Assembly (NCBI RefSeq): GCF_030068615.1
Contig: NZ_JASJOC010000004.1
Span: 62,001-126,000, forward strand
Length of the DNA: 64,000 bases
Source of the DNA: Halostagnicola sp. A-GB9-2
GTDB lineage: Archaea > Halobacteriota > Halobacteria > Halobacteriales > Natrialbaceae
Direction of reading: 5' to 3'
Shown here piece after piece: positions 35,321 to 58,558 of this stretch. The notes below the pieces were generated by a model that was given only the letters and a program-made list of their open reading frames with translations, had not been told where the DNA came from and searched no databases. How positions within the stretch are numbered: position 1 is the first letter of the stretch; every line of letters begins with the position of its first letter. The translations under genes were made by a program, and so were the position numbers.

Positions 35321-37015
35321 ATGGCACAACAGCAAATGGGCAATCAGCCCCTCATCGTACTTTCCGAGGACAGCCAGCGAACCTCCGGGAAAGACGCACA
35401 ATCGATGAACATCACGGCCGGGAAAGCCGTCGCGGAATCGGTCCGGACGACGCTCGGCCCGAAAGGGATGGACAAGATGCTCGTCGACTCGACGGGCTCG
35501 GTCGTCGTCACGAACGACGGCGTCACCATCCTCTCGGAGATGGAAATCGACCACCCGGCGGCCAACATGATCGTCGAGGTCGCCCAGACGCAGGAAGACG
35601 AAGTCGGCGACGGTACCACCTCCGCCGTCGTCGTCTCCGGTGAACTCCTCAAGCGTGCCGAGGAACTCCTCGACCAGGATATCCACGCGACCACACTCGC
35701 ACAGGGATACCGACAGGCCGCCGAGGTCGCCACGGACGCCCTCGAGGACATCGCCATCGAAGTCGGCGAGGACGACACCGAGGTCCTCGAGCAGATCGCC
35801 TCAACGGCGATGACCGGCAAAGGTGCGGAGAACGCTCGAGAGCTGCTCTCCGAACTCGTCGTCCGAGCAGTCCAGACGGTCGCCGACGACGACGGAATCG
35901 ACACGGACAACGTCAAAGTCGAGAAGGTCGTCGGCGGCTCGATCGAGAATTCCGAGCTCGTCGAGGGCGTCATCGTCGACAAGGAGCGCGTCTCCGAGAA
36001 CATGCCGTACTTCGCAGAGGACGCCAACGTCGCGATCGTCAACGGTGCCCTCGAGGTCAAAGAGACCGAGATCGACGCCGAAGTCAACGTCACCGATCCC
36101 GACCAGCTCCAGGAGTTCATGGAACAAGAGGAGGCCCAGCTCCAGGAGATGGCAGACAAGCTGGCAGACGTCGGCGCGGACGTCGTCTTCGTCGACGGCG
36201 GCATCGACGACATGGCCCAGCATTACCTCGCACAGGAGGGCATCATCGCCGTCCGTCGCGTCAAATCCAGTGACGCGAGCCGACTCGCCCGATCGACGGG
36301 CGCTCGCCCGGTTTCGACAGTCGACGACATCACCGAGGACGACCTCGGCTTCGCCGGCAGCGTCGCACAGAAAGACATCGCCGGCGACCAGCGCATCTTC
36401 GTCGAGGACGTCGAAGACGCCAAAGCTGTCACCCTGATTCTCCGCGGTGGCACCGAACACGTCATCGACGAAGTCGACCGCGCGATCGAAGACTCGCTCG
36501 GCGTCGTCCGAACGACCGTCGAAGACGGACAGGTCGTCGCCGGCGGTGGCGCACCCGAAATCGAACTCTCGCTGGCACTGCGCGACCACGCCGACTCCGT
36601 CGGCGGCCGCGAACAGCTGGCTATCGAAGCCTTCGCGGACGCCCTCGAAGTCATCCCACGCACGCTGGCCGAAAACGCTGGACTCGACCCCATCGACTCG
36701 CTCGTCGAACTGCGAAGCGCCCACGACGGCGGCGACACGGCCGCCGGACTCGACGCCTACACCGGCGACACCATCGACATGGACGCCGAGGGCGTCTACG
36801 AGCCGCTTCGCGTGAAGAGCCAGGCGATCGAATCGGCAACCGAAGCCGCAGTCATGCTGCTTCGCATCGACGACGTCATCGCCGCCGGCGAGCTGAAAGG
36901 CGGCGCACCGGACGACGACGACGGCGACGACATGCCAGCAGGCGGCCCAGGCGGCCCAGGCGGCATGGGCGGTGGCATGGGCGGCATGGGCGGTGGCATG
37001 GGCGGCATGATGTAA
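35321..37015 (+). CDS. ths: Thermosome (group II chaperonin) subunit
   Basis: Predicted 564 residues starting [20 protein letters not shown]. Conserved nucleotide-binding and hydrolysis motifs are [24 protein letters not shown], the catalytic GDGTTSAVV and [13 protein letters not shown]. The C-terminus is a repeat of GGM/GGMGG units (last 24 residues), the flexible tail inside the chamber. It folds proteins in an ATP-driven double ring. Haloarchaea usually have two or three paralogues, so this could be Ths alpha or beta. It is monocistronic, followed by a run of repeated hairpins. Confidence 0.95.
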
Positions 37016-37016
37016 G

Positions 37017-37169
37017 CGCGGAACCGAAGGTTCCGCGGAAAAGCGAACGACGAAGTCGTGAGCAAGGAGCGATTCGGAGCGAACGCAGTGAGCGAGAATC
37101 GCTGAAAGCGAGTAGCGCGGGACCGCAGGCCCCGCGTACCGTGCGAACGGGCGCGCAGCGCCCGTGAGC
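37017..37169 (+). repeat. Array of GNA-triloop hairpins downstream of the thermosome gene
   Basis: Five hairpins follow the stop codon. 37017-37037: 9-bp stem, GAA loop. 37043-37063: GCGA-ACGAC-GAA-GTCGT-GAGC. 37079-37093: GCGAAC-GCA-GTGAGC, itself enclosed by GCGATTC (37069-37075) and GAATCGC (37096-37102). 37115-37137: stem with one mismatch and GCA loop. 37143-37169: GCGA-ACGGGCGC-GCA-GCGCCCGT-GAGC. The flank GCGA...GAGC can form G-C, C-G and two tandem G.A pairs. Confidence 0.8.
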
Positions 37170-37328
37170 AGACGGGGAGCGAATGCGACCCGCGATCTTA
37201 CCCCTACCTAACCGATCAACCAAAACGCCGGCCCGTACTCGAGGAACGACCAAAAAACGGACTTCACGTCCGGTTCGTTCCTCCTTTTGCGTTCTCAGCG
37301 ACCTCGAGTAGCGACACCGAACCGACAG

Positions 37329-51141: not shown

Positions 51142-51270
51142 GCTCACTCCGTTCGCGGGCTGCGACTTCCGAGCCTTCGTTCGTTCCACTCATGAAGACA
51201 CTCCTCTTTCCTCTCCGTTCGCGTTGCTCACTCCGAGTCAGTCGTCGGCCCGCTCGCTCACTTCGTTCGC
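51142..51270 (-). repeat. Two short copies of the GCGAAC-GNA-GTGAGC hairpin family
   Basis: On the minus strand GCGAAC-GGA-GTGAGC (51142-51156) and GCGAAC-GAA-GTGAGC (51256-51270) match the flanks of the hairpins at 37.0 and 58.4 kb, but with the variable stem reduced to the AC/GT pair. A partial, more degenerate copy lies between them near 51216-51232. Confidence 0.7.
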
Positions 51271-51320
51271 TCGCGGTAAAATATCATAGCCGTACTGCAT
51301 CCAATCAACAGAGACGCTAC

Positions 51321-58331: not shown

Positions 58332-58440
58332 TCGATCGCGGTTCGCCGCGTTGCGAACCGCGATCGACAGCCGTGCGAGGGACGAATGAGCGGAGCGCGA
58401 CGCGAAGCGTCGCGGAACAGCGAACGGCGAAGCCGTGAGC
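58332..58440 (+). repeat. Hairpin cluster between trpS and endA (GNA-triloop family)
   Basis: 58332-58367: TCGATCGCGGTTCG and CGAACCGCGATCGA pair perfectly (14 bp) around 8 bases. 58396-58414: CGCGACGC-GAA-GCGTCGCG. 58420-58440: GCGA-ACGGC-GAA-GCCGT-GAGC. The last two have the same order and loop as the 37.0 kb copies, but different stems that still pair. A trailing segment, GAGTCGGCTGGGGAGGATG (about 58455-58473), also looks like a recurrent haloarchaeal word. Confidence 0.75.
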
Positions 58441-58558
58441 CAAGCGAGCGAACGAGTCGGCTGGGGAGGATGTGGAAATCAGTGTTGCCAGCACGATGGC
58501 TGTTCCTGAGTGGGTCACTCTCACTACAGTACAGTAGACAGTCCGTTACAGCACATTG

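Follow-up and report, generated by a model that had tools for sequence, protein, structure and literature searches.

The stop codon of a thermosome gene (Cpn60_TCP1, PF00118; 35321-37015, + strand) in Halostagnicola sp. A-GB9-2 is adjoined by an array of hairpins whose flanks are constant and whose stems change, and the question raised by this locus is whether the array serves the thermosome transcript or belongs to a sequence family of wider occurrence. We analyzed the 64,000-nucleotide stretch of DNA around it (the window) together with related genomes. On the best reading, a short palindromic element of Halobacteria, itself non-autonomous, has several copies stacked in this array.

Organization of the array

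The original prediction described three hairpins with GCGA-AC and GT-GAGC flanks, and all three are present: GCGA-AC GAC-GAA-GTC GT-GAGC at 37043-37063 (stem of 5 bp), an AC-GCA-GT core at 37079-37093 (2 bp) and ACGGGCGC-GCA-GCGCCCGT at 37143-37169 (8 bp). Two extra hairpins that it listed, at 37017-37037 and 37115-37137, are also real, the second with one A.C mismatch, and each forms the first half (hairpin X) of a pair X-Y. The proposed pairing of hairpins thus survives as X-Y units; the proposed agreement in loop type between paired hairpins does not hold generally, since X has many other loops in the modules collected.

All parts of the array lie on the + strand. Module 1 (37015-37066; 61.2 bits, E 5.4e-12 with the covariance model R1) begins at the thermosome stop codon and consists of X1 (37017-37037), the spacer GAAAA (37038-37042) and Y1 (37043-37063). 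It is followed by the hairpin X2 (AGCGATTC...GAATCGCT; 37068-37103; RNA fold z -2.6), a tandem-GA ladder read from the sequence that contains the nested tip GCGA-AC-GCA-GT-GAGC at 37079-37093. Module 3 (37114-37172; 42.4 bits, E 9.1e-08 with model R1) comprises X3 (37115-37137), a spacer (37138-37142) and Y3 (37143-37169), then AGA. In the sister species G057 the X2 hairpin lies directly at the stop codon and is followed by an uninterrupted GCGAGCGGGGAGCGCAGTGACCCGCGAGT, on which basis GCGAG at 37108-37112 is taken as the left remnant of Y2, the partner of X2, and CGGGGAGCGAATGCGACCCGCGATC at 37173-37197, also compared by eye, as its right remnant. Y2 therefore appears to be split in the window by module 3, which would sit within it; the comparison with G057 was visual here, since this stretch aligns ambiguously by program.

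The window holds three good modules under model R1, the two above and a further one at 58394-58443 (+ strand; 66.2 bits, E 4e-13), which adjoins GTCGGCTGGGGAGG, a motif that belongs to a larger element present in many copies. The - strand carries a tandem-GA ladder hairpin, CC-GC-GA-GC-GA-AC-GAA-GT-GA-GC-GA-GC-GG, at 51250-51276, and a single Y-type hairpin, GCGAACGGAGTGAGC, at 51142-51156 in the context AGTCGCAG...ACGTCT.

Larger composite elements were seen alongside. The first 500 kb of the Halorubrum-like genome G153 contain 33 copies of a composite element of about 360 nt (L056-L080; for example, L056:7160-7540), in which the helices GACGAGGCTGGGGAGGCGTGAGG and GGGACTCAAAGGGGCAG...GGGGCTTTGG are conserved and the hairpins vary; a TATA-like TTTATAAA precedes many of the copies. 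This element has no Rfam match and may be a multicopy noncoding RNA. Shorter relatives of it occur near window position 58394 and at 126730 on contig C33 of the same genome as the window. A second composite family, in which a tRNA T-arm-like inverted repeat GGGATTTGAACC...GGTTCAAATCCC encloses AGTCGCAG-(GA hairpin)-ACCGTCT, was found in G153 (14114, 152013 and 439613) and in the window's own genome (C1 88945 and 237001; C33 349291 and 350094).

The X-Y unit and its distribution

The unit can be described as two hairpins in the fixed order X, spacer, Y, with a length of about 48-62 bp. X has the form G-CGNGG...CCNCG, and is mostly CGNGG...CCNCG; the spacer is 3-7 nt long and mostly A-rich; and Y has the form GC-GA-RC-stem-loop-stem'-GY-GA-GC, with a tandem G.A/A.G step. 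Information falls at the module edges, and the flanks beyond carry little. The exact 21-nt Y hairpin was collected at 119 loci, of which almost all belong to Halobacteria; in 77 of the 107 copies that lie outside TnpB ends a perfect hairpin X is found within 10 nt upstream, as against 11 with X downstream and 13% in shuffles. A scan for Y hairpins with loops of up to 60 nt was drowned in coding-region noise.

Copies matching model R1 are present in 55 of 59 Halobacteria genomes at 1-48 per genome (these counts being lower bounds), and in none of 36 genomes from other classes of the phylum. The exact Y also occurs in the Euryarchaeota MAG B79T1B8 (L173, L246 and L253), outside the named Halobacteria genera, with X in at least two of the loci; this MAG could represent a haloarchaeon, or the sequence could be contamination. 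The flank pattern GCGAAC-N(0-20)-GTGAGC occurs seven times in the window against 0.54 expected (at least seven in 0 of 100 dinucleotide shuffles), and among 194 genomes of the class it outnumbers the reversed control pattern in almost every one.

The original prediction had named stems that fail to covary, or copies equally frequent inside genes, as evidence against it; the stems covary and the copies are mostly intergenic. For a non-circular test, sites were picked only by GCGA-NN-GNA-NN-GAGC, with the arms left free, in 2.4 Mb from six haloarchaeal genomes, genes being called by our own codon-model script with approximate borders. The NN arms (AC, GC, CC or GT) are complementary in 52 of 56 intergenic sites. 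The proportion falls to 3 of 27 for sites inside genes and to 13 of 61 where an intergenic site has another loop; leaving out G153, which is rich in repeats, the intergenic figure is 16 of 19. In an alignment of 50 modules, 97.6% of the cells are paired and covariation is 0.383 versus 0.097 when shuffled, a comparison that is partly circular in that X and Y were picked as hairpins. Ladder hairpins are intergenic in 101 of 114 cases, where intergenic DNA makes up about 17% of the sequence. Likewise, 21 of 24 modules in 2.4 Mb of contiguous DNA are intergenic, on either strand, one of them between divergent genes. Copies inside genes number 3 of 24 and 6 of 20 in two counts, so that the element is not strictly extragenic. 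The proposal of a REP-like family not tied to one gene is thus borne out as regards a dispersed, mostly intergenic, class-wide and covarying repeat, and needs amending in that the unit is a twin hairpin that also occurs in-frame within proteins.

Folding and a possible role in RNA

Both DNA and RNA folding yield the two-hairpin form, with energies well below those of shuffles. The DNA energy model cannot tell the strands apart, so that it is the conservation of the GA letters that speaks for a preferred G.A strand. Rfam 15 gave no match in the window at the gathering threshold, and a permissive search gave one chance match (E 0.15) that does not overlap the array. A kink-turn or L7Ae site was ruled out from the sequence, the tandem G.A step being without the 3-nt bulge.

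The hairpins might act in RNA as a 3'-UTR structure (a transcript end, a terminator or an exonuclease block) that serves genes with high expression, the thermosome gene among them. Relatives that have an array after the thermosome gene carry it on the sense strand, starting at or adjoining the stop codon; the RNA folds far better than shuffles (z -5.3 and -3.7); copies inside genes are all sense; and hairpins upstream of some RNA 3' ends in Haloferax can partially terminate transcription (PMC7237163). However, copies between genes do not clearly favour either strand with respect to the genes beside them, the array is missing from many thermosome orthologues, some copies lie inside reading frames, and a separate hairpin with a T-run is found downstream of the array at 37240-37290 (+ strand, read from the sequence), which is likely to be the real terminator of the thermosome transcript. 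Taken with these points, a 3'-UTR role as the reason for the hairpins is unlikely. The suggestion of a structured-RNA family fares similarly: a dedicated RNA function is unsupported because intergenic copies are oriented both ways with respect to adjacent genes, whereas the sense-only bias inside genes is compatible with an effect at the RNA level.

Presence and absence at the thermosome stop codon

The genomes G057 and G087, from relatives in the same genus, are nearly identical in sequence up to the thermosome stop codon. At that codon G000 and G057 differ by a clean 51 bp that corresponds to module 1, and G057 and G087 by a clean stretch of about 72 bp that corresponds to X2-Y2. Module 1 thus appears to have been inserted exactly at the stop codon. 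Such clean presence and absence could in principle reflect precise deletion instead, but insertion is likelier because many thermosome orthologues are without any array. No target duplication was seen by eye at the empty sites. Another hairpin element, TAAATTTTGCTCTGCGGG...CCCTCGGCAAAATTTAGT, was observed on the sense strand of the thermosome 3' region in G087, G057, G116, G199 and G043 (L083, L082, L091, L095 and L094, respectively).

These comparisons also bear on whether the palindromes were made in place, by replication template switching that perfects stable mini-hairpins, with no mobile element involved. Perfect stems that are swapped wholesale, and hairpins nested within hairpins, are what such a process would leave. 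It would also turn the G.A steps into Watson-Crick pairs, yet the tandem G.A step and the fixed order X-spacer-Y are retained. In addition, the 51-bp difference is clean and the relative has no palindromic precursor; the identical 21-nt Y recurs across many genera, and identical X-Y pairs are found in different organisms; and the spacer, the G.A step and the limit to one class persist in copies at unrelated new sites. We consider template switching very improbable as the origin of the modules.

Copies within reading frames

Modules are found in-frame in about ten gene families, confirmed by Pfam, among them TrpA, iPGM, two E2 acyltransferases, UvrC, an Lhr-type helicase, chlorite dismutase-ABM, rhodanese-MBL, HhH-GPD glycosylase and Dna2-like proteins. 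These copies consist of the module and little more, and encode a peptide of an acidic loop type, SEARxAS..ANGEAVS. Two loci, L222 (TrpA of Natrinema mahii) and L369 (an Lhr-type helicase), apparently carry two tandem modules in one reading frame. The insert in TrpA occupies one single place in 14 of 50 rows, and a tree built without the insert requires at least six gains or losses, four of them forced by strong branches. That the same TrpA site is used again and again points either to strong site choice or to insertions that are old and were later lost in some lineages. Compensatory stem differences distinguish the TrpA inserts (CGAGTCGC/GCGACTCG versus CGAGGCGC/GCGCCTCG).

With TnpB and chance bacterial matches excluded, all in-gene copies are in the sense orientation (seven, six and three genes in three counts). 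By eye, the antisense strand of the consensus is free of stop codons in any frame, and therefore stops do not explain this bias, which could come from selection for acidic, soluble inserts. A further reading, which we regard as unlikely, is that the element moves via a transcript or via single-stranded DNA exposed by transcription, entering conserved proteins repeatedly, in-frame and in the sense orientation only, with the sheared tandem G.A hairpins as its recognition mark.

A candidate mover

Taken together, these observations probably describe a dispersed, insertable, non-autonomous palindromic element that is REP-like between genes and resembles the palindromic elements of Rickettsia within genes. 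Some indication of how it might move comes from the IS200/IS605 group. At 12 loci the right-end hairpin of TnpB elements is tipped by the exact Y (the TnpB of one of them, L170, has PF07282 and PF01385), which also encodes the end of TnpB there, and candidate left ends of TnpB elements carry tandem-GA (ladder) hairpins. Such a Y at TnpB ends suggests a Y1 transposase that binds hairpins as a possible means of moving the module. The window's own genome has only two Y1_Tnp (PF01797) genes, and the TnpA locus that we examined has the GAGTAGG end motif and lacks the strict ladder. A TnpA-type transposase of IS200/IS605 is a tentative guess for the mover. The TnpB hairpin is a Y without an X, and the link may instead be convergence on a stable hairpin.

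The modules could also be no element of their own and represent decayed ends of IS200/IS605 (TnpB) elements. Besides the Y tip at right ends, some left ends read NGACCAT-Y-AGA and then continue with the end hairpin, an arrangement similar to TACCGT-Y-AGA in module 3 of the window. Against this, an X is present in most modules while the GAGTAGGG stem found at the ends is missing from them, and the in-frame copies contain little besides the module. The end stem with GAGTAGG around the tip hairpin is present at TnpB ends and was not seen in the copies of the thermosome array. Derivation from decayed ends is accordingly a rather unlikely account.

For the insertable element, we propose that a single strand folded into the twin hairpin would be recognized by a hairpin-binding nuclease and spread by insertion. 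The best candidate for this nuclease would be an IS200/IS605-type HUH transposase, given that haloarchaeal TnpB elements have Y-type hairpins at the tips of their ends and that inspection by eye shows no target duplication. Copies would be kept where they are harmless, which includes sites downstream of stop codons, the loops of structured elements and, in proteins, peptides that form acidic loops, and any effect on the 3' end of the thermosome mRNA would be secondary.

Relation to known elements

The closest likeness, judged by kind of element, is to the Rickettsia palindromic elements (RPEs; Ogata 2000, 2002; reviewed in PMC10969869). Both are short palindromes that occur between genes and in-frame in unrelated conserved genes. 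RPEs, however, are about 150 bp long and belong to a bacterial genus, whereas the haloarchaeal element is about 50 bp long, spans an archaeal class and is built of two hairpins with a tandem G.A step.

With REPs and BIMEs the module shares dispersed, mainly extragenic hairpins in many copies and mosaic arrays near gene 3' ends. Unlike REP/RAYT systems, its edge has no GTAG-tagged REP sequence and its copies also lie within genes; the two PF01797 genes of the window's genome are candidates by family only, whether as RAYT or as module-linked. REPs are not known to insert in-frame within conserved proteins. IS200/IS605 ends, TnpB omega-RNA hairpins and their non-autonomous derivatives share the Y-type tip at the right end, but the module has X and is without the end stem and a transposase gene. 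MITEs are similarly short, non-autonomous and multicopy, with polymorphic sites, but the module has two hairpins in series in place of a long terminal inverted repeat across the element, and the empty sites inspected by eye showed no target duplication.

A survey of archaeal REPs did not include haloarchaea (PMC12306157). We found no published haloarchaeal counterpart in the searchable literature, which is not proof of novelty, and a search with the motif letters matched only unrelated papers. The MITE review describes in-frame palindromes for Rickettsia and calls a similar mechanism elsewhere conceivable (PMC10969869).

The module is a common feature of haloarchaeal intergenic DNA that has apparently been unannotated so far, and as an insertable sequence it supplies haloarchaeal enzymes with acidic loops that vary. 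In-frame palindromic insertions had previously been described as special to Rickettsia; with a second, unrelated case across an archaeal class that has transformable model organisms, both the movement of such elements and their tolerance by proteins would become testable.
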